From IMG/VR virus record IMGVR_UViG_3300006793_000005, positions 1 through 38,151 of that record: 38,151 nt of DNA. One strand, written 5' to 3'. Shown in pieces: positions 9,920 to 27,152 of this stretch. The notes beneath the pieces are model-generated. The model saw only the letters and a program-made list of their open reading frames with translations. It searched no databases and had not been told where the DNA came from. Position numbers and translations under genes: made by a program. Position 1 is the first letter of the stretch; the number at the start of each line of letters is the position of its first letter. This DNA comes from a virus.

Positions 9920-10429
9920 ATGAAAACCCTACGCATCATCGCAACCGAGATCGCACGGTGTGGCATCGACATCCGCGATGACCGACTTCCGCACTGGCCG
10001 CGAAGCACGATCGGACTCAGAGCAAGCGAACGCCTCCCTTGGCGCATCATCCGAGACCTTGAGGCGCTCGGTTACTGGGTAGAGGTCGACGACGACAGCA
10101 AGTCGCGCGGATACGCCCACGGTGAGACAACGTTCATCTGTGGTTGTGGTGATAACGGGGCCGAGATCGTAGCCTCGACAGACGACCTACTCGCGCTGTC
10201 AGAGGCCATCGCTGAGAATGGCGCATACGCCAAGGGGCAGAGCCTATACCGCGATAAGGGCTGGGCCCGTTCGTGTGGCTGGCGACACTACGTGTACGAG
10301 GGTGTCTCGAAGCGCTCAGGCCTCATCCGAGTGCGACGGGTTAGCACGTCAACGGGGCGTATCCACAAGACGGTGCAGGAGTGGCCGATCGGTCACTTCA
10401 TACCGACCAAGCGCAATTGGGCCGCATAG
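9920..10429 (+). CDS. Hypothetical early protein
   Basis: 169 residues, ATG at 9920 after GAGAGGATACGAC. I do not recognise the family. It has an N-terminal helical part (LRIIATEIARCGIDI, RIIRDLEALGYWVEVDDD), a Cys pair CGCG at about 74-77, and basic C-terminal strands (RVRRVSTSTGRIHKTVQEW). A longer reading from 9863 exists, but it has no ribosome site and would run through the leader hairpins. It shares its 18-base leader with the gene at 10512, so the two are probably regulated alike. Confidence 0.65.
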   Translation: MKTLRIIATEIARCGIDIRDDRLPHWPRSTIGLRASERLPWRIIRDLEALGYWVEVDDDSKSRGYAHGETTFICGCGDNGAEIVASTDDLLALSEAIAENGAYAKGQSLYRDKGWARSCGWRHYVYEGVSKRSGLIRVRRVSTSTGRIHKTVQEWPIGHFIPTKRNWAA

Positions 10430-10511
10430 AGGCAAGGGGTAGCGCCTGAGCATCGCTCGGGCTCTACACCGTGCGCCTATGCACGACCACTAGCAACCGA
10501 GAGGATACGAC
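10430..10511 (+). promoter_or_regulatory. Structured leader with repeated motif, copy 2
   Basis: An 82-base gap between two early genes. GCCTGAG (10444-10450) pairs with CTCGGGC (10456-10462) over a 5-base loop, and GTGC (10471-10474) with GCAC (10481-10484). GACCACTAG follows (10485-10493, also found at 11079 and, as GACCACTA, at 14917), then the exact leader repeat CAACCGAGAGGATACGAC (10494-10511) and the start codon. Confidence 0.6.
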
Positions 10512-11021
10512 ATGACAACCAAGATTGACACCAAGCACCACGACTATGACTGCATGCTTCACCATGGTGACACGGACTGTGACTGTGGCATGGGCGATGC
10601 TCGCGAGCGCTGGCAAGACCTGATGAGTCTCTACCATGACTCCACCAGACGCGGGCCGTTCCGTGACGATCTGATGGACGAGTTGAACGAACTGGACAAG
10701 GCACTCGCAGACCATGCCAAGCGTCCAGTGTGCAAGTGGACTGGGCTTGTCAGTTATGAGACGCGGGTTCCGTTCCCCAGCTGTGGCCTGAACGGCGATT
10801 GGTCGGTTAGCGCGTGGCACATCGACATTGCAGGCACTGCCAACCGAACCGATGGTGGGTGCTACTTGCTTGATGATGAGAACGGCAGCTACTCCATCGT
10901 CCGGCGTTGGTATGTCGAGGATGACAACGACCGTATCGAAGTGCTCGGTACGTGGGGCAGCGTTGACCATGCAATCGCGGCCGCTCGCATCATCAGAAGA
11001 CGACAGGCCATGAGCCTGTAG
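10512..11021 (+). CDS. Hypothetical early protein with Cys/His-rich N-terminus
   Basis: 169 residues starting at the ATG at 10512. The N-terminal 27 residues are unusually rich in His, Asp and Cys (KHHDYDCMLHHGDTDCDCG), which could bind metal. A helical stretch (RERWQDLMSLYHDS, DDLMDELNELDKALADHA) and a beta-rich C-terminal half (SVSAWHIDIAGTAN, GSYSIVRRWYVEDDNDRIEV) follow, ending in a basic helix. I do not recognise the family. It lies in the run of small early genes that are separated by structured leaders. Confidence 0.65.
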   Translation: MTTKIDTKHHDYDCMLHHGDTDCDCGMGDARERWQDLMSLYHDSTRRGPFRDDLMDELNELDKALADHAKRPVCKWTGLVSYETRVPFPSCGLNGDWSVSAWHIDIAGTANRTDGGCYLLDDENGSYSIVRRWYVEDDNDRIEVLGTWGSVDHAIAAARIIRRRQAMSL

Positions 11022-11119: not shown

Positions 11120-12028
11120 ATGCAGACCGTTATCACTGACGAGCTAATCACACTTCTCGCCTCGCTCAAGACCAAGAAAACAGCAGTGGAAATGAAGGCC
11201 ATTTGGGCCGTCAATCCTGCGATGGCCGTAGCTTGGCAGGCTGCCATGCTTGCCAACGGGAAGCGCAAGCTTCTGAGCGTCAATCAAGCCAAACTGGACA
11301 AGTCTGGGAAGACAATAGGTGTGCTCACAGTAGGCCTGACCATGTCGCCAGCTGATGAGTCTGCGCCTTTTATCAAGGGGCATAACGCTTGTGCAGGTAG
11401 CACCACAGCATGCCGAGCGGTCTGTGTTGGCAATGCCACTGGTCAGGCCGCTATCTCCGCTCTGTTAGAATTCGATGGGCACCTTCTCGCGCGTCTGGGG
11501 CGCACGATTCTGCGGCATTACTGCAGAGACCTATTCGACGCGCGAGAAGCTCACGAACTCGCAGCCGCACGACGTAAGGCAGACCGACTAGGCTACGGTC
11601 TCGCATACCGTCCAGACGTGGCCACCGACTATCAGGACGGCCGCCAAGGGTCAGACGTGGACATGGTGTACGGGTACACGGCCGTATCGGCCGCAATGCG
11701 TCGTGACGATGGCACCTTGCGCGCATTCTCTCGGAAGGACACCAAGCGCTCAGACGGTCTCGCGCGTGCATGGGTGGCCAAGGGTTATCCGGTGGCAGTG
11801 GTCTTCACAGTGGCCAAGGGAGAGCCGTTGCCCAAGACGTGGCACGGCGCGCCGGTCATCGATGGGGACCTCCACGATGTCTGGCCCATGCAGGATAACC
11901 CGACCACTGGCGCGCCCATCAGCGACAGCTATGGTCAACACGGTGTCGTGATCGGTCTTCGCATGAAGTACGCGAACAATGGCCAACGTGATGCAATCAT
12001 CGCGACCGGCTTCGCGGTAGCTGCGTAG
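11120..12028 (+). CDS. Phage Cys-motif protein (Gp88/DUF7227-like)
   Basis: 302 residues. The motif HNACAGSTTACRAVCVGNATG near residues 88-108 (Cys 91, 98, 102) resembles the CPGAT..C...C....G core of a phage family often annotated as gene product 88-like, in which Cys residues probably bind metal. The upstream IGVLTVGLTMSPADES and downstream LEFDGHLLARLGRTILRHY segments, and a C-terminal region with GYPVAVVFTVAKG and DLHDVWPMQD, fit that layout. The biochemical function of the family is not known to me. AGGAGG precedes the ATG. The family name is a pattern-based memory and should be treated as provisional. Confidence 0.65.
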   Translation: MQTVITDELITLLASLKTKKTAVEMKAIWAVNPAMAVAWQAAMLANGKRKLLSVNQAKLDKSGKTIGVLTVGLTMSPADESAPFIKGHNACAGSTTACRAVCVGNATGQAAISALLEFDGHLLARLGRTILRHYCRDLFDAREAHELAAARRKADRLGYGLAYRPDVATDYQDGRQGSDVDMVYGYTAVSAAMRRDDGTLRAFSRKDTKRSDGLARAWVAKGYPVAVVFTVAKGEPLPKTWHGAPVIDGDLHDVWPMQDNPTTGAPISDSYGQHGVVIGLRMKYANNGQRDAIIATGFAVAA

Positions 12029-12109
12029 GCTCTCACGCGGATGGGATCCGATCGCCTAGATCGGGTCTCATGGCGTGCGATTCTGCGCGGCTTTCAAGAG
12101 GGTAGAAAC
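12027..12109 (+). ncRNA. Repeated structured leader element, copy A
   Basis: First of three related intergenic elements. It starts inside the stop codon of the preceding gene with AGGCTCTCACGCG and ends at the ATG at 12110. A central stem pairs GGGATCCGATC (12043-12053) with GATCGGGTCTC (12059-12069), 11 pairs including two G-U, over loop GCCTA. Outer CACGC (12034-12038) can pair with GCGTG (12073-12077). The shared 3' flank GGCGTGCGATTCTGC follows. The last 25 bases diverge from copies B and C. Confidence 0.7.
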
Positions 12110-12241
12110 ATGAACAGCATCATATACGCCGACGACATCGAAACCATGGTTAAGATCTGCGCCGAATTGGACGTGTGGCGCTTGGGATTCAAGGCCGAAT
12201 ACGTCCACGGTCGGGGCTGGGAAATACGGCTCTTACGCTAG
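12110..12241 (+). CDS. Very small hypothetical protein
   Basis: 43 residues (MNSIIYADDIETMVKICAEL..., ending GRGWEIRLLR) with ATG at 12110 and an AGAGGGTAG ribosome site. It is bounded on both sides by copies of the same structured element, which is the main evidence that it is a real expressed gene. A longer frame from 12041 would read through the element and is rejected. It is a compact acidic helix followed by a basic strand-like tail; function unknown. Confidence 0.55.
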   Translation: MNSIIYADDIETMVKICAELDVWRLGFKAEYVHGRGWEIRLLR

Positions 12242-12249
12242 CCGAACGT

Positions 12250-12330
12250 AGGCTCTCACGCGCGGGTGCCCTCTCCGTTGGATGGGGCGCCAGGCGTGCG
12301 ATTCTGCACGATTCAACAGAGGTACTATCA
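12250..12330 (+). ncRNA. Repeated structured leader element, copy B
   Basis: It starts AGGCTCTCACGCG like copy A, but the central stem has a different sequence: GGTGCCCTCTCC (12265-12276) pairs with GGATGGGGCGCC (12280-12291) over a GTT loop, with one mismatch and two G-U pairs. The 42 bases 12293-12334, including the ATGA start, are identical to 12850-12891 in copy C. Conserved flanks around a stem of changing sequence but kept pairing indicate selection on RNA structure. Confidence 0.75.
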
Positions 12331-12804
12331 ATGAGTACAGACATCCAGATCCACGACCATATCAACGGCGACGACGACTTCCCTTTCGCCGCCCGCATAG
12401 GCCACGGTGGGATCGTGACGGTCGGCGGAGACCCGACCAGCTGCGACCCCTTCGTTGTGGTGACGTCAGAGGGCTACCCGAACTACCCACAGATCACCCT
12501 ATCGCTGCACGGCGGGAATTACACCTACCAGCAAGGGACGCCTGCGCTGACCTACACATACGCGCATGACCGGTCACGCCCGGTCCAATTCTGGGCTGAT
12601 AAGATCGCGACCATCATGGGGTGTGTGTGTCCCCTGTGCGATGCGCCCATCGTGCGATCCGAGTGCGGTGGCAGTGGTGAAGGCATATGTGGGGACAGTG
12701 AAGATGCAGCGCCGGACGTGAGGTCACGCATATTTGGGTACGCGCAGGCATGCCACGCTAGCCTCGTGACATGTGAAGACCTTACCGCGTTTGAAAGCCG
12801 ATAG
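12331..12804 (+). CDS. Hypothetical early protein with Cys motif
   Basis: 157 residues, ATG at 12331 after CAGAGGTACTATCA. Residues 5-90 are beta-rich (HGGIVTVGGDP, DPFVVVTSEGYP, QITLSLHGGNYTYQQG). A Cys cluster follows (CVCPLCDAPIVRSECG), which looks like a small zinc-binding site, then an acidic helical end. I do not recognise the family. The gene is flanked by leader copies B and C, giving it the same expression signals as its neighbours. Confidence 0.6.
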   Translation: MSTDIQIHDHINGDDDFPFAARIGHGGIVTVGGDPTSCDPFVVVTSEGYPNYPQITLSLHGGNYTYQQGTPALTYTYAHDRSRPVQFWADKIATIMGCVCPLCDAPIVRSECGGSGEGICGDSEDAAPDVRSRIFGYAQACHASLVTCEDLTAFESR

Positions 12805-12807
12805 CAC

Positions 12808-12887
12808 AGGCTCTCACGCGTACGGGATCTGAGGATGCTCGGGTCTCGTGGCGTGCGATTCTGCACGATTCAACAGAGGTACTATCA
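12808..12887 (+). ncRNA. Repeated structured leader element, copy C
   Basis: Third copy. It has the same AGGCTCTCACGCG start and a stem GGGATCTGAG (12824-12833) with CTCGGGTCTC (12838-12847), ten pairs including three G-U, over loop GATG. GGCGTGCGATTCTGC and the same 3' flank and ribosome site as copy B (identical over 42 bases) follow. The stem differs in sequence and length from copies A and B but keeps pairing. Confidence 0.75.
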
Positions 12888-13193
12888 ATGAAACGCTTGA
12901 CCATAGCCGTCCTACTGCTCGCACAGGGATGTGCGACCGTCCCACCCGCTCGCCAGATGCCGCGCATCACACACAAGTGCTCGATCGTCGATCGAATCGA
13001 AGGCGGATGGGCCATCATCGAAGCGCCTGACGGTGTGTTGTATGAAATCCCGGCGGAGACCATGCCGGGCATCACTGAAGGGGCGCCCCTGTGTGCCCTA
13101 GAACGCATCGCAGACCTCTGGGAGCCCCACCAGCTGTTTGACTGCCTGGAGCGTGGGGAAGACGTTAATACCTGCATGACTGAGGAGGGCTAG
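12888..13193 (+). CDS. Secreted lipoprotein with DUF3006-like domain
   Basis: 101 residues. The N-terminus MKRLTIAVLLLAQGCATVPP is a short signal peptide with a lipobox-like LAQGC, so the mature protein (from about Cys 15) should be a membrane-anchored lipoprotein. The segment IVDRIEGGWAIIEAPDGVLY followed by EIPAETMPGITEGAPL matches the VDRIEG...AVLE...G...IP...LP.GAKEG pattern of DUF3006 proteins. The C-terminal half has three Cys. Early-expressed phage lipoproteins often block re-infection or receptor use; that role is inference. Its last codons carry the ribosome site of the next gene. Confidence 0.7.
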   Translation: MKRLTIAVLLLAQGCATVPPARQMPRITHKCSIVDRIEGGWAIIEAPDGVLYEIPAETMPGITEGAPLCALERIADLWEPHQLFDCLERGEDVNTCMTEEG

Positions 13194-14880: not shown

Positions 14881-14908
14881 TTGACGGCCGGTATACGCTA
14901 CGTATACT
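14881..14908 (+). promoter_or_regulatory. Sigma70-type promoter
   Basis: TTGACG (14881-14886) and TATACT (14903-14908) are separated by 16 bp, followed by a leader to the GTG start at 14938. This is the best sigma70-like promoter I see in the window. It would drive the recombination/SSB cluster (14938-17269). A palindromic operator overlaps its -10 region. Confidence 0.7.
14891..14907. promoter_or_regulatory. Palindromic operator overlapping the promoter
   Basis: GTATACG-CTA-CGTATAC is a perfect inverted repeat of two 7-base arms around a 3-base centre, covering the spacer and most of the -10 box. A dimeric repressor bound here would block polymerase. The candidate phage repressors are the XRE protein (5652-5951), the winged-helix protein (9313-9681) and the ribbon-helix-helix protein (16681-16860), which is in the operon this promoter would drive. 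Confidence 0.6.
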
Positions 14909-15852: not shown

Positions 15853-16019
15853 GCGGCATGGACACATGGATGCGAAAGATTGAGAACTGGGCAGCGCTGG
15901 TGCGGATGCGCGCCAACCTGCCCGACCACCCGCTCCATGAGAGCGTTTACCTGCCGCTGTTCCAGTGGCTCATTGATAACCAACCCGACAAACTCGGGTT
16001 CAAACTGGAGAAGAACTGA
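15849..16019 (+). CDS. Small hypothetical protein between coupled genes
   Basis: 56 residues (MSGMDTWMRKIENWAALVRM..., ending KLGFKLEKN). It is accepted because its ATG overlaps the upstream stop (ATGA) and its TGA overlaps the downstream ATG of the ERF gene (TGATG), filling the gap exactly and keeping the chain of coupled genes unbroken. Trp-rich N-terminal helix; function unknown. Confidence 0.6.
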   Translation: MSGMDTWMRKIENWAALVRMRANLPDHPLHESVYLPLFQWLIDNQPDKLGFKLEKN

Positions 16020-16684
16020 TGGGAGACGAGACCACAGGCAACGCTCACAACGTGAGCCACATCACCACAGGTGTTGGGGGGCCCAAGCTGTTCAAAGCGC
16101 TTGCTGCCTTCCAAGCAACGAGGCCAACCGCTGTGATGGACGGGACCAACCCGCACTTCAAGTCCAAGTATGCCGGGCTGTCTAGCGTGACCGAAGCCGC
16201 GCGTGGCGCTTGCGAGTTTGGGCTGGCTGTGCCGCAGCTTGTGCATGGGGATGTGGTGATCACCATGCTTGGGCACGAGAGCGGTGAGTGGTTGCGCACC
16301 GAGACGCGCATCATCGCGACCAAGAACAACGTGCATGGTTATGGCTCGGGCATCACCTACGCCCGACGCTACGCGCTCAGTGCCATCCTTGGCATCGTCG
16401 CGGACGAGGACGACGACGGCAACGCCGCAGTGGAGACGTCGCGTAAGGCCAAGCACTCCAAGGACTTCAAGGACGGGGGCCTGAAGTGGGTCTTCCCCAA
16501 GCTCAAAGAGTTGGGGCTCGAATATGAGGTGGTGAGCCGGTACACAGAGGCGTATCGAAAGGGGCGGCTGAGTGCCATGGACAGGGCCGAAGTCGAGCGC
16601 CTGCTCGTTGGCCTGTCTGACGGTCGCAGCGTTACGCGTAAGCATTTCAACGAGTGGATAGCGAACAACCCGGAGGGGTCATGA
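16019..16684 (+). CDS. erf: ERF-family single-strand annealing recombinase
   Basis: 221 residues. The conserved ERF core is clear: KLFKALAAFQA at 23-33, an NPHFKSKYAGLSSV segment at 44-57, and the hallmark GSGITYARRYALSAILGI followed by VADEDDDGN at 109-135. ERF proteins bind ssDNA as rings and anneal complementary strands, helping genome circularisation and recombination-dependent replication. A C-terminal helical domain (WVFPKLKELGLEYEVV onward) is lineage specific. It lies directly before the RHH and SSB genes, which supports a recombination module. Confidence 0.9.
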   Translation: MGDETTGNAHNVSHITTGVGGPKLFKALAAFQATRPTAVMDGTNPHFKSKYAGLSSVTEAARGACEFGLAVPQLVHGDVVITMLGHESGEWLRTETRIIATKNNVHGYGSGITYARRYALSAILGIVADEDDDGNAAVETSRKAKHSKDFKDGGLKWVFPKLKELGLEYEVVSRYTEAYRKGRLSAMDRAEVERLLVGLSDGRSVTRKHFNEWIANNPEGS

Positions 16685-22400: not shown

Positions 22401-25254
22401 GGACCTGTGACAGCGGGCTGTCCTCAAAGAACTCGGCGGCGTCCTCAACAAGCCGCACCACCTCCTGGTTGAGGTTGCGAACCCTGGGCTCAACACTGCG
22501 CTTCGCGGCAGGCTCGTCCCTGAGGGCTCCCTCTGGGGTCAGCCTTCTCGAGGGGCTGAACGTACCGTCTGCCTGCAGCGTGTATGGCTTCTCGTCAAAG
22601 CTATAGCCACGCGACTCACGCGGAGCGGTGAGCCCAGGGGAAAGCTTTGGCGACTCGTATGCCGCTCGACCGGGGGGATACCATGGAGCCATCTCGTGAC
22701 CAGGCCGCACCACCGCTGGCTCTGGCGTAACCGGCGGCTCCTCGAACGGAACCATGCCGCGCCCACCGGGAACCCCCTCGCGCATCGCGGCGTCGGCCTC
22801 GTTCAACATCCTCTGCGCCTCGTGCGCCCGCTGCCTAAGCAAGTACGAAGTCTCGTCGGCAAGCGCCTCCTCCATCAGCCTCTCGACGATGTCGCGTGGC
22901 TGACCCTGAGACCGCGCCCTCTCGACCCGGTCGACAAGCGCCCGGTTGTACTCCCTGGACTCCTCGATAGCGGCTCGTGCCCGCTCCCTAAGCGCGCGAA
23001 CATTTATATCTGGTGGCGCCACCGCTCCACGATCAGGGACAGCGCCAGCACGTCGAGCGCCCATCGCCTCCCGTGTCGCTGCCACCTCTGGGAGGTCTGC
23101 CACTGCCCCTGGCGTCACCACGCGCTCGGCCTGGCCGACCATGCGAGCTCCAGCAGGGGTCTCTTGTGCCCGGAAAGCGCGCTCGGCGGCAACGAACGGG
23201 TCTCCGCCAGCCCTCTCCATCATCTGCATGAGAGCCGCTCGGGCGCTCTGCGGGTTTGGGAAGTGGCGCACTGAATCCGTCAAGTAGGCGAGCGCTTCAG
23301 CGAGCGCAGCCCTGTCCAACTGCGTCGGAGCGCGCCCCTTGAACGCATCGGAGGCCAACTGCCGGAGCCACGGCGTGTCCATGTCGAGCAGTTTCAGCCC
23401 AATCGCCTCTGCCTCTGGCGACAACGTGTACTTGCCAACACGAGGAGGCACTTGCCCAGGCGCAGGCAGGCCGAGCGGCTGCGGCTGCGGGGGCAGCGGG
23501 GTGTCGGTCGGGGCCAGCGGGGTGCCGCGCTCGAGAACCTCTGGGATGAGCGCCCCCTCTGGGCCAACTGGGCCAGCACGTCGAGCGCCCATCGCCGCAC
23601 GCGTGGCTGCTACCTCTGGCAACTCCCCGCCCGGAACGTCTTTGAACGAGAACCCTGCGCCAGGTGGCGGCTCTCCCGCAACCACTACATCGGGAGACAA
23701 CTCCTCATACACGGGCCTGCCACGACGCGCCTTGACCGGCTGCTGTATAGCAGCGCCGGGCTTTGGTGGAGGGTCGAGCGCGTTTGCCAGCTGCGGGCCC
23801 AGAGCCTTAACGCCCTGCTCTAACTGCCTCGGGTCCGGCAAGAGCTCATGCGCAAGCGGGCGCATGGCTGGGTCTGCCATGTGGGTGGGGTCGACCTTCC
23901 ATCGCTGAAAGAGGGCCCAGAGTTCGTTCGCTGAGTCCATGACGGCAGCGGCCCCGCGTGTCGCCCCAGCGCCTCTTCGCCCAGAGTCGGCGTATCTGTT
24001 CATGGCGTTGTATGTCTTGCGGCCCCAGTTGGCGGCACCCTTGGACAGCGGGACGCCAAGGCGTCGTGCAATCGGATACACCATCGCGGTAGTGACAATG
24101 GGGTACGCCTTTGCAACATCCCCCGGCTTGTTGAACAGCGCCTGGACGAAGGCCACCATCTCCCTGCTCATCTCAGGCCATCGCTTGGTCGCCTCCTCCT
24201 CAAGGATGTGCTGGCCACGTCCCTGGGATACCTCCATGCCGCCCATATCCAGGAGCACCTTCTTGCGCTCAGATGCGGTGGACTCCTCCCAGAACTCCTT
24301 TGGTATGTTGCCGCCTGACATCCATGAGAGGATCTCGTATGTCGCCTCTGCAAACTCGAGGGCGTTCTCGGCGGCGTTTTCAAGTAGTGTCTTCGAGCCA
24401 GAGCGCACGACAGCGTCCGAGAGGATGCCCTCAAGAAGGTCCGCAGACTCCTTGTTTTCGAGTTCCCACCTCTTGCTCCACCCCCTGCGCTCTGCCGGGT
24501 CCATCGAAACACCAAACACGCTGATGGTCTCGTCGCCGTCCCACTCGTCGGTGTTCATTGCCGCGTAGCCCTCAAGCGCTGCGCTTGTGATGCCACCGGC
24601 CAGCGTCCCCGCAAGAGCGCCAGCGCGCGTGAGCGCAGCCTGCCCTCTCGCCGCAGCGCGCTCGGGGATGCCGCCAACAGCCCCCTTCTGGTATGTGTCC
24701 AGGCCAGACTCGAGTCCACGCGCCTGCTCGAGCGCAAGAGGCTCTCGTGGCGCAGCAGCCCACTCAACGGTCTTGCGCACATCTTGCGCAAACTGGCTTG
24801 GCAGACCCTCGAACCTGCGATGCGCACGCGCCATCTGCTCCACAGGCCTTGAGCGCATGTAGTCTGCAACGCCAGACGGAAGCGGCTCTACGGGCTGGTT
24901 GCGCACAGCCGGGGCGCCTGGCTGCGCCTCGAACGGTCGCCTCACATCTGTCGCATACGGCAACTGCTGCGTCGGCCCAGGGAGCGGTGGGGAGGCTGGC
25001 TGCTCTGGAGCTGGCGGCAGAGTGAACGCCAGCGGCGTATCGAACGAAATGGGTGGCTCAGGAGGCTTGAGCCTAAGTGCCGAGGCGCCCTCGTGCTGCA
25101 TAAGCGGGACGGACGCAACCTGGTCGGTGATAGCCATCCCCTCAACGCCTGGCGCTGTGGGATCGATGCCGAAGCCGCCGAGGATCTCATTGAACCGCTC
25201 TCGCGTGACCCCCTGTGACGCCATCTGCTTGGCAAGCTCAAGGACAGTCGCCAT
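19408..25254 (-). CDS. Giant internal virion / DNA-ejection protein
   Basis: 1948 residues. The start is ATG at 25254 in a TAATG overlap with the upstream gene. The protein is long, mostly helical and Ala/Arg/Glu rich, with a Pro-rich N-terminal 130 residues, a Gly/Ala stretch (about 200-225) that could cross a membrane, and no recognisable enzyme motif. Near residues 553 and 728 it repeats LPEVAATR(A/E)AMGARRAG, and 25 bases of that repeat are identical at the DNA level. The basic coiled-coil C-terminus (ESVEKLEFYLDQEF onward) lacks a hydrolase. Size and place after two other Ala-rich virion genes match ejectosome proteins of T7-like podoviruses (gp16 length class). Homology to T7 gp16 is not shown. 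Confidence 0.75.
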   Translation of the reverse strand: MATVLELAKQMASQGVTRERFNEILGGFGIDPTAPGVEGMAITDQVASVPLMQHEGASALRLKPPEPPISFDTPLAFTLPPAPEQPASPPLPGPTQQLPYATDVRRPFEAQPGAPAVRNQPVEPLPSGVADYMRSRPVEQMARAHRRFEGLPSQFAQDVRKTVEWAAAPREPLALEQARGLESGLDTYQKGAVGGIPERAAARGQAALTRAGALAGTLAGGITSAALEGYAAMNTDEWDGDETISVFGVSMDPAERRGWSKRWELENKESADLLEGILSDAVVRSGSKTLLENAAENALEFAEATYEILSWMSGGNIPKEFWEESTASERKKVLLDMGGMEVSQGRGQHILEEEATKRWPEMSREMVAFVQALFNKPGDVAKAYPIVTTAMVYPIARRLGVPLSKGAANWGRKTYNAMNRYADSGRRGAGATRGAAAVMDSANELWALFQRWKVDPTHMADPAMRPLAHELLPDPRQLEQGVKALGPQLANALDPPPKPGAAIQQPVKARRGRPVYEELSPDVVVAGEPPPGAGFSFKDVPGGELPEVAATRAAMGARRAGPVGPEGALIPEVLERGTPLAPTDTPLPPQPQPLGLPAPGQVPPRVGKYTLSPEAEAIGLKLLDMDTPWLRQLASDAFKGRAPTQLDRAALAEALAYLTDSVRHFPNPQSARAALMQMMERAGGDPFVAAERAFRAQETPAGARMVGQAERVVTPGAVADLPEVAATREAMGARRAGAVPDRGAVAPPDINVRALRERARAAIEESREYNRALVDRVERARSQGQPRDIVERLMEEALADETSYLLRQRAHEAQRMLNEADAAMREGVPGGRGMVPFEEPPVTPEPAVVRPGHEMAPWYPPGRAAYESPKLSPGLTAPRESRGYSFDEKPYTLQADGTFSPSRRLTPEGALRDEPAAKRSVEPRVRNLNQEVVRLVEDAAEFFEDSPLSQVPGFRALAFEEAQLALENRIANNMQVASYREGAVTRIANEIERRSRRSVDRDSMRAILDEAKEGGVNNVRFRYQDVNGKPGEISVVDAMARYMDADPELAALVRRPMAIANMRRLAITSRKLSHQNTALKSIRDWHPEGSSFVPEGGVPRAGRIDMQSAAKSAPDIPSELQHFIDRYVDTAELPPLARNSPSAILKYAKDNNINVPSALVRRLNRLKLVPPEMLEAFGLQKPANLSPERAVRTPDPVLLDSDPVIGRVKPELYLKDDLLNSARWIFTDEGWASGVSPSMSWTRTVPFFKGLANYTKAARVALNPSSHANAWISNAGAAALKNRDPLALVKALDWALDYKRWQAGLPTKRPAEFFEAISRGDILDSSFAAVELKKSGLLDIATGDAWLKKVTKRGLQIADLPTKTVGRLFDLPDNVFKGWDTFNIMEKYLREWDTLPEGKRMSVPVGRGREITLVKKKPSQSGKSNAYSNGKQLTRPQLLGILARSGGEITARTFVNFKDVPIIQIAKRNTPEWDALFGSPFSGWRSVTTTVPGRQGIVGEILAGPVSRGSTNYKPLMVKRAAEAASHGALMSSVIGAEAAQLDEKDELFRTASAWSPEEAKPILMDPTGEEGVYNVWPMGNANPHEDMVDTLRMLEFGRSAVDFGLGYIDPTELSYLRPEQVKQLGSATREDLAKMSAGDRALYKAAKGLSDSTVQGTNVGWKRALDMAYVGGSAIADAYVDFAEAKGMPGSSNAAIIAFITKTAMRTFVPGYIGKGASAYYEWRIPDIKKLRDKVLADDSLSAYERDEEVARLDSEIGISRWLAGYKYRAPIETPGGGALERASTGFITVMLDHMFNMPRHELMIGDKSKTDEALKEMKKRAISAVMDRTAKRLKGYDEDIGTKKRKIGRLTAGPERSALSTEYDNLKAAKKRLKESVEKLEFYLDQEFDARRDLLKDQSRLDAILHEGTRKHTRGTEKRWEKGRLDSETRTKMGRIRSPDKWRQLR
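23044..23068. repeat. 25-bp direct repeat in the giant virion gene, copy 1
   Basis: Identical to 23572-23596, 528 bases apart and in the same reading frame. It encodes part of the repeated MGARRAG peptide. The surrounding sequence is similar but not identical, so a short internal duplication is likely. Confidence 0.8.
23572..23596. repeat. 25-bp direct repeat in the giant virion gene, copy 2
   Basis: Partner of 23044-23068. The spacing is a multiple of three, so recombination between the copies would delete or duplicate 176 codons in frame. Confidence 0.8.
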
Positions 25255-27152
25255 TAGTCCCCAGCCCGCCGCCGGAGTTTGCGCCCCCACTCCCCGCCAC
25301 CCCACGACGTGCTGATATTGGCCTTCCTTATTGCGTTCCGGGCCTTTATGAGCGCGGCCTTGGCCTCTTTCCTCTTCTTGAGGATCTCCTTCTTGTACTT
25401 GGCTGTGACCTCTCTTGCGTCACCATCGGACGTGCCGTAGTCCTTCATCTCCGGGTCAGACGCGAATTCGGCCACGTCCGCCTTGGATATCCCCGTCCTG
25501 TCAGCAATCTTCTTCAGCTTGGCGACCGCCGCCTTTACCATGGCCGGGCTCTCTAGCTGCCGGTGGTCAAGGCCGAGAGCCGCACTGGCATCGTCCATCG
25601 CCTTGCTGACAATGGCCCTGTCTGTAGCATCTGCTGCCGCCGGGCGCGTCCGCGTTTGCCAGTCACGGTTCCATGCGTCCAGTTTGGCTCGGGCGTCGGA
25701 GTCGAGGGAGCCGGGAGTCTCCTGTATCCTCTTGACCTGCAGAGCGCGGTCCTTGACCTTGATCCTGTTGGCCGCATACGTCCCCTTGGCGAGAGCAAGC
25801 AGCACATAATGTGGGTCGGCCGCATTTCTAGCGCTCATCGTGATGCCCTGGATCGTCGTCGTCTCCCTCCCCGGAGGAGTTGGGCCGTCGCCGCCGCCCT
25901 TCTTCTTCTTCTTCGCCTCCTTATCTTTCATTCTGTAGACATCCCGGAGGGTCTGGCTCTCCAGCTTCACCTGTTTGGCCGGAGCCCTTCTGCCCCCAGA
26001 CTTGATCGCGTTCCGAGCTCGAGCCTCCACCAGCGCGGGCACGTCGTGCTCACTTGTGATGAACGAGGCGTAGTCCATGGCACCGCGCGCTATCTGCAGC
26101 AAGTCTCTTGCCTGCGCCTCTTGGCCAGCAGCGATGAGTGCGCCGTATGACTCCGCCAGGTCGGAGATGGTGAAGTCGGACCCACCGCGCGCCCTTTCCA
26201 CAAACTCGCCAGCTGTGACGGGCGTGCCAGTGCGCTGCTCGGGCACATCCATGCGCTGCGCTTGGACGTGGAGCACGCGCTTCTGGTTTTCATTCAGCTC
26301 GTCGTACTGCTGTCGCGACCACCCGTATGCAGTGAGCGTCTGGTCAAGCGCCCTGTCGAGTCCCATCGCCTCTCTAACTTTGGCCACGAGATGGGGACGG
26401 TCTTCAGGCTCAACAGCCGCCATCCACTCTTGGAGCTTATTGCGCCTGGCTGGGGTCAGCTCCTCGAGTGCGGGTTGCGTCTGCTGCAGCGCGTCGCGCT
26501 CGAGGAGCTGACCCTTGACCCTCTCAAGCGCATCCCAGACCAATCGCCGCCGTGGATCGTAGCTGCCATCCGGCAGCTGGGTCCAAGCGATGCCGCCTTT
26601 GCCGTCCCTTGTGACGATTCCGTCCTGGATGGCCTCCTCCAAGACGGATTCCGGTGTAATGTCGGCCGTTGGTGCAGACGGTGGCTCCTCGAGGGGGGCG
26701 AACGCTCGCCTGGGCGACACCCCTTCTACCAGCCGACGAGTCATCTCTTCTCTCGCCACGGGGGCCTGCGCTCTTGCCCTCGCCGCACGCTCGGCCATCT
26801 CGGCCCCGCCCGAAGGATCCCAGTCCTGCGGGTCCTCCGTCATGCGCTGCCTGAGTGCGGTGAGCTCTTGGGGGCCGGTCGGGCCCTTCCAGTGCTCAGC
26901 GCGACTCTTAACCGCCTCCCCCTGCAAGCGAGCTACGGCTTCTTCTGGGGTCTCCTTTGCGGCCTGGTAGATGTGCCGACCAATCCCGTATAGACCAGCT
27001 GCGGCCTTAGTGCCGATCCCGATGGCCTGTATAATGCGCAGCGCCCGCTCTTCGCCCGATGGCTCTTGCGGCTTCTGTTGCCAGAACTTCTGCACCGGGG
27101 GCGTTCTCGGCCCGAAAGCCCGCGATGGGTCTGGAAGGATGATGCGTGCCAT
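25254..27152 (-). CDS. Internal virion protein (ejection-type)
   Basis: 632 residues, ATG at 27152 with a GGGGGG-type ribosome site. Charged helical protein with Pro/Arg-rich start, long Ala/Glu/Arg/Gln helices (PEEAVARLQGEAVKSR, REEMTRRLVEGVSPRRAF), a KKKKKGGGDG linker and a very basic end (KYKKEILKKRKEAKAALIK). There is no catalytic signature and no signal peptide. Placed between two other large virion-type genes and coupled to the 1948-residue gene (TAATG), it is probably one of three ejection proteins that enter the host with the DNA. Assignment is by context and composition. Confidence 0.65.
   Translation of the reverse strand: MARIILPDPSRAFGPRTPPVQKFWQQKPQEPSGEERALRIIQAIGIGTKAAAGLYGIGRHIYQAAKETPEEAVARLQGEAVKSRAEHWKGPTGPQELTALRQRMTEDPQDWDPSGGAEMAERAARARAQAPVAREEMTRRLVEGVSPRRAFAPLEEPPSAPTADITPESVLEEAIQDGIVTRDGKGGIAWTQLPDGSYDPRRRLVWDALERVKGQLLERDALQQTQPALEELTPARRNKLQEWMAAVEPEDRPHLVAKVREAMGLDRALDQTLTAYGWSRQQYDELNENQKRVLHVQAQRMDVPEQRTGTPVTAGEFVERARGGSDFTISDLAESYGALIAAGQEAQARDLLQIARGAMDYASFITSEHDVPALVEARARNAIKSGGRRAPAKQVKLESQTLRDVYRMKDKEAKKKKKGGGDGPTPPGRETTTIQGITMSARNAADPHYVLLALAKGTYAANRIKVKDRALQVKRIQETPGSLDSDARAKLDAWNRDWQTRTRPAAADATDRAIVSKAMDDASAALGLDHRQLESPAMVKAAVAKLKKIADRTGISKADVAEFASDPEMKDYGTSDGDAREVTAKYKKEILKKRKEAKAALIKARNAIRKANISTSWGGGEWGRKLRRRAGD

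Follow-up and report, generated by a model that had tools for sequence, protein, structure and literature searches.

A conserved hairpin with constant arms and variable paired cores at gene junctions of a phage group, probably selected as RNA

Described systems and the present element

The hairpins at which RNase III processes T7 transcripts contain an asymmetric internal loop that holds the cut site. The put sites of phage HK022 form two stem-loops close to where early transcripts begin, the PeSL stem-loops of T4-like phages are promoter modules that move with gene cassettes, and integron attC sites, found between gene cassettes, have conserved ends and a variable paired middle. According to an excerpt of PMC4858673, the early mRNA of T7 is cut by RNase III at five sites. 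Excerpts of three papers on cluster K phages describe repeated start-associated sequences (SAS/ESAS) with inverted-repeat arms, upstream of varied non-structural genes within one phage group (PMC3203893, PMC11373665, PMC12699233); in the excerpted parts, changes in the ESAS arms lend little support to RNA pairing (PMC3203893), and ESAS are said to contain putative promoters (PMC11373665).

The element considered here was found in a 38,151-bp IMG/VR phage record (IMGVR_UViG_3300006793_000005), the whole of which is called the window below. Like T7 hairpins such as R1.1, it is an irregular hairpin with some 20 pairs, placed between a stop codon and a ribosome binding site (RBS), repeated at the junctions of a polycistronic run, with G-U pairs and with sequence shared between sites. 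Folded identically, five of six T7 early junctions give 18-20 pairs in 50-56 nt, and the present hairpins give 22-23 pairs in 56-60 nt. In contrast to T7, the asymmetric internal loop is absent, the mismatches being mostly 1x1 with only a small 2x1-like loop below the core; and the upper stem, which is the conserved part in T7, varies here, whereas it is the basal arms that are constant. On these two grounds, the lack of the loop and the basal position of the conserved part, we do not file these elements as members of the T7 type.

The other systems resemble it in part. As with SAS/ESAS, the element is a repeated start-associated sequence with inverted-repeat arms, placed upstream of varied non-structural genes in one phage group; unlike ESAS, its RNA pairing is supported and a consensus scan found no promoter, and the 13-bp SAS GGGATAGGAGCCC is absent from the linkers when these are read directly. 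It shares with put that it is structured RNA in a phage transcript, but it is one hairpin and sits at internal junctions. Stem-loop modules that travel with cassettes recall PeSL, without the promoter or a U-run; fixed ends around a variable paired middle recall attC, except that here the transcript strand folds best and the end sequence differs.

The hairpin and its genomic setting

The first 85 bases of the window are identical to its last 85, which makes a complete circular assembly probable. Encoded in it are a terminase, a P22-like portal, an ERF annealing protein (16019-16684, Pfam E 7.8e-17), an SSB and a C5 DNA methylase. Reading rightward, a GP88-like gene (302 aa; 11120-12028, plus strand; PF17338, phrog_1617) is followed by copy A of the hairpin, a 43-aa ORF, copy B, a 157-aa ORF, copy C, a DUF3006-like gene (101 aa; 12888-13193, plus strand; Pfam score 31.2, below the cut-off of 32.3), a 209-aa ORF and the methylase gene. 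Judged by the kind of genes it holds, this hairpin-bearing rightward run of non-structural genes is probably an early operon. The GP88-like protein has distant relatives in Mycobacterium phages, matching only at residues 182-283 among the rows listed.

A sequence-only reading of this DNA had described three copies of an intergenic RNA element, and these are real: A (12027..12086), B (12250..12307) and C (12808..12864), all on the plus strand, are complete hairpins of 57-60 nt. A pattern demanding both exact ends finds three forward and no reverse matches in the window, and its backward control finds none. Copy A runs from AGGCTCTCACGCG to GCGTGCGATTCTGC around a core of type I and precedes the 43-aa ORF; B, between the 43-aa and 157-aa ORFs, has the same ends around a type II core; C, between the 157-aa ORF and the DUF3006-like gene, has them around a type I-like core and is syntenic with the copy in a divergent phage (L126, below). 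In all three the constant ends AGGCTCTCACGC and GCGTGCGATTCT pair with one another except at two single mismatches, AGG.CT.CACGC facing GCGTG.GA.TCT, and the whole 57-60 nt therefore forms one hairpin of 22-23 pairs. The outer CACGC/GCGTG had rightly been called constant, but the hairpin does not end there, since AGG.CT and GA.TCT pair beyond it; the stems, given as 11, 12 and 10 pairs, are cores of 13 pairs in A, 11 pairs plus one internal mismatch in B and 13 pairs in C. Pairing in A reaches further, into the last part of the GP88-like coding sequence. Compared with dinucleotide shuffles, the three RNAs fold with z-scores of -8.6 (A), -3.0 (B) and -4.4 (C).

The same reading placed the elements over or just after the upstream stop, and this holds: the TAG overlaps A (12026-12028) and ends 8 nt 5' of B and 3 nt 5' of C. 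From each element to the ATG the distance is 23 nt, occupied on the plus strand by an RBS-bearing linker at A (12087..12109) and by linkers at B (12308..12330) and C (12865..12887) that are identical to each other. As had been noticed, B and C share an identical 42-nt run into the start codon (12293-12334 = 12850-12891), which contains the 15-nt arm GGCGTGCGATTCTGC, and the downstream proteins are unrelated, with no mutual BLASTP similarity at E 1. Across the group of phages described below, the layout is a stop codon, an irregular hairpin of 56-60 nt, a linker of 19-34 nt with the RBS, and an ATG; the gap of 23 nt recurs in five of seven copies.

Occurrence in related phages

An exact-ends scan of viral contigs returned three contigs. 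One (G003/L003) is 99.8% identical to the window across 14,270 bp and is thus the same virus; of the others, G001/L001 holds one copy and G002/L002 two. A covariance model (R1) built from six copies was run on 31 records related by terminase or GP88, most of the negatives among them being short pieces without the region, and five were positive. This search, which the sequence-only reading had proposed, brought in a seventh copy, in the divergent phage G004/L126 (48.2 bits), syntenic with C: it precedes the ortholog of the gene behind C (protein 73% identical), and its core is wholly different yet still paired. The total is seven copies in four distinct viruses, a diverged copy D apart, with four of the seven outside the window in three related phage contigs. 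All seven lie at a gene junction, on the strand of the genes.

The GP88-to-methylase stretch is held by five records, each with at least one copy; G005 and G019 stop in or shortly after the GP88 gene, and in L126 and L127 the GP88 gene is not followed by an element. A scan by methylase alignment yielded four records with the region, all known already, and 47 distant ones; the latter, MTase-related, gave a single match at E <=0.1 (14.3 bits, E 0.046), judged to be chance. Among the matches listed from a relaxed pattern scan of viral contigs, none beyond the known records has the element, and they look chance-like. A tighter version returned seven stretches from viral contigs, namely the four known records and L169-L171, which have neither fold nor linker, and 30 stretches from genome contigs, none of which on inspection combines the nested fold, the GATTCTGC arm and an RBS linker. 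One candidate from the genome contigs, L180, has a predicted fold of -26.4 kcal/mol and was discarded on visual inspection. When 50,697 phage records were searched by distant blastn with the A-B, D and C regions, nothing matched; Rfam 15 gave no gathering match in the window and, for 11950-12950, no relevant match up to E 10. In searches of the open-access literature in PubMed Central, no paper appears to describe the element.

Conservation of pairing and the strand under selection

The seven copies were aligned with MAFFT, which is blind to structure, and 25 pairs (175 cells) were counted. Paired cells amount to 94.9% against a shuffled mean of 81.1, a level reached by none of 500 shuffles. 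Nine of the 25 pairs change on both sides and remain paired, while 10 are invariant. Covariation scores 0.421, where shuffles give 0.163 (sd 0.028) and again 0/500 reach the observed value, and when the structure is slid by one to three columns the score is at most 0.114. Unaided, RNAalifold recovers the same structure minus one pair. The seven rows are not independent, because there are only three independent core lineages besides D: I (A, C and the first G002 copy), II (B, G001 and the second G002 copy) and III (G004). We regard the conserved structure as very probably real. The view that the RNA element itself has been copied and kept is borne out by the pairing conserved in relatives, and the absence of covariation in related genomes, named beforehand as the observation that would speak against it, was not what was found.

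In all seven copies the transcript strand is predicted to fold more stably than its complement (for A, -32.8 against -22.3 kcal/mol), and the non-Watson-Crick cells comprise 31 G-U, 2 A-C and 7 other mismatches (in the core, 17 G-U against 1 A-C). Such an excess of G-U over A-C is not expected if the DNA duplex or the complementary strand is what is selected, and together with the strand preference it makes it likely that selection acts on RNA, though a C-to-T mutation bias of the non-template strand could contribute to the same excess.

The arms are nearly invariant. Between the window and G004, AGGCTCYCACG/CGTGCGATTCTGC shows one change in 24 nt, set against 72.3% identity in the adjoining gene and 52/100 at its third positions. 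Both arm mismatches are conserved across copies, the pyrimidine-pyrimidine one being retained in L126 when its letters change from T.C to C.C. Within the core, columns 21-45 form G-U or U-G in 7/7.

Shuffling among junctions

The hairpin module has been shuffled among junctions, because a nearly identical stem stands between unrelated genes and different stems stand at one shared junction. Copy A matches the first G002 copy at 58/60 positions, both differences making up one compensatory change from T-A to C-G; the 30-nt windows around them are only 23-70% identical except for the gene-end window at 87%, the GP88 proteins before them are about 41% identical, and the downstream genes differ. Conversely, G001 and G002 share the upstream gene (57/60 nt flank identity), with core II in G001 and core I in G002. 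B and C have a linker in common and different cores; B and the second G002 copy have a core type in common (53/58) and different linkers. Since upstream gene, core, linker and downstream gene vary independently, the pattern suggests exchange inside the constant arms, and we infer a role in it for the ERF protein.

Candidate functions

Our preferred reading, held tentatively, is that these are intercistronic RNA hairpins of one family, akin to the RNase III junctions of T7, whose constant arms double as recombination homology. Within a long transcript the hairpin would mark a junction for processing or for protection of ends: its long irregular stem would be recognised by a host RNase specific for double strands, or by some other factor that reads hairpins, and the transcript would be cut there or its decay blocked, so that neighbouring genes would come to lie on separate, stable messages. 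The arms, kept for recognition, would also supply homologies of 11-15 nt, and by annealing at these the phage's ERF-type protein could exchange stems, linkers and genes from one junction to another. Taken separately, RNase III-like processing or end protection is possible, if short of an even chance. No RNase III gene (PF00636) was found in the window; the reading assumes a host RNase III. Of the functions put forward by the sequence-only reading, RNase processing fits best, whereas a put-like antiterminator and a translational switch found no positive evidence and are disfavoured by the location at internal junctions instead of an operon leader, by an RBS that lies outside the hairpin and by accessibility that is generally unaffected.

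The main rival, a serious one that we nevertheless think somewhat unlikely, is an RNA operator: the constant arms and their two mismatches would be recognised by an RNA-binding protein of the phage or the host, which would thereby regulate the downstream gene at the level of translation, of transcript elongation (put- or nut-like) or of stability. It draws its weight from arms nearly invariant in sequence and in pairing, from the pyrimidine mismatch kept through a change of letters and from the wobble at columns 21-45, and the spacing of 23 nt to the ATG in 5/7 copies puts the ribosome site beside a bound hairpin. Yet the binding protein is hypothetical, the RBS is not within the hairpin, its predicted accessibility depends on the hairpin in only 1/8 copies, and with three core lineages the wobble may be chance. 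An insulator role was rejected on the same calculation: replacing the hairpin by shuffles caused no general drop in RBS accessibility (notable in 1/8). A broader formulation, in which modular, group-specific RNA linkers have fixed arms read by an RNase or RNA-binding protein and serving also as homology for swapping stems and genes, strikes us as doubtful, if a little less so than the operator; on that formulation a single sequence would do duty in message processing and in gene shuffling alike.

Were the palindromic junction kept for spread or cassette exchange at the DNA level, with no RNA role, one would expect upstream gene, core type, linker and downstream gene to be reassorted independently of one another, as they are in the four phages, and some GP88 junctions to be bare, as in L126 and L127. 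We consider this improbable, as the transcript strand folds better in 7/7, G-U outnumbers A-C by 31 to 2, and the element always has the orientation of the genes and stands at their junctions; moreover, neither an attC-type tyrosine recombinase (PF00589) nor a REP/RAYT-type HUH Y1 transposase (PF01797) was matched in the window, though RAYT genes may lie in a host genome. A transcription signal, whether terminator, attenuator or an ESAS-like promoter module as in cluster K mycobacteriophages, is still less probable. A hairpin with a start-associated flank does recall SAS/ESAS, for which an excerpt of PMC11373665 reports SigA-like promoters, but no copy has a sigma-70-like promoter or U-run terminator on the plus strand in a consensus scan that may not match the host's sigma factors, and the absence of a U-run after the stem was also read directly from the 3' sequence. 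Least probable is that there is no function and that ribosome-site flanks were simply repeated, copied along with neighbouring genes; other junctions of this phage do have repeated RBS flanks (repeats D7, D11 and D12), but two-sided changes preserve the pairing, and the syntenic L126 copy keeps a fully changed core paired.

Phage genomes are mosaic, and how the boundaries between their genes keep working after an exchange has long been asked. The present junctions bring a conserved RNA fold of their own, found beside different genes, which makes the link between recombination at boundaries and RNA function directly testable. The hairpins would also constitute a structured RNA family new to Rfam 15.

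A diverged copy and other repeats

The sequence-only reading, counting three copies, had missed a diverged fourth. A fold scan of the window detected copy D (10424..10482, plus strand), an irregular hairpin of 59 nt that spans the stop of the gene at 9920-10429 and precedes the gene at 10512-11021; its linker to the start codon (10483..10511, plus strand) is 29 nt long, with an RBS part repeated before gene 9920 (repeat D11). The 3' half of D aligns with C at a score of 14, reached by 4/2000 shuffles and by 0/1813 window segments; alignment with B is weaker (43/2000 shuffles reach its score) and with A not significant (303/2000). With filters off, a covariance model (R2) gives D 11.7 bits in the sense direction and 15.8 bits on the other strand, and D was accordingly rejected as a plain family member; because the model recognises it poorly, its homology rests on the sequence match to C. 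Paired to C around the loop by inspection, in an alignment imposed by structure, D adds four two-sided pair changes and two broken pairs. The identical 59 nt are present in G001, where the upstream protein is 91% identical (154/169) and the upstream gene 73-97% identical in DNA per 30-nt window.

Fragments resembling single arms also occur. At 12228-12242, the end of the 43-aa ORF, GGCTCTTACGCTAG differs from the 5' arm by two mismatches, possibly a decayed second arm, at a mismatch level expected by chance; at 11499-11513 in the GP88-like gene, GGCGCACGATTCTGC resembles the 3' arm (2 mismatches) within a weak model match (11478-11513, E 0.028, filters off). A second type of copied junction is given by GAGGAGGGCTAGACCATG, repeated at 13182, 15262 and 15637, where stop and start fall within one repeat. 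Just after the methylase gene, G001 (oriented, about 29728) and G002 (about 14710) share a further junction at which a long hairpin and then CAGACCACTACACAGGAG precede the next start codon. A promoter-like TTGACG-TATACT site lies at 14881-14908 of the window. The strongest hairpin of the window is a very strong inverted repeat at 26445-26520 (20-nt arms 95% complementary, folding z -7.0), located within the coding region of a 632-aa ORF on the minus strand (25254-27152).
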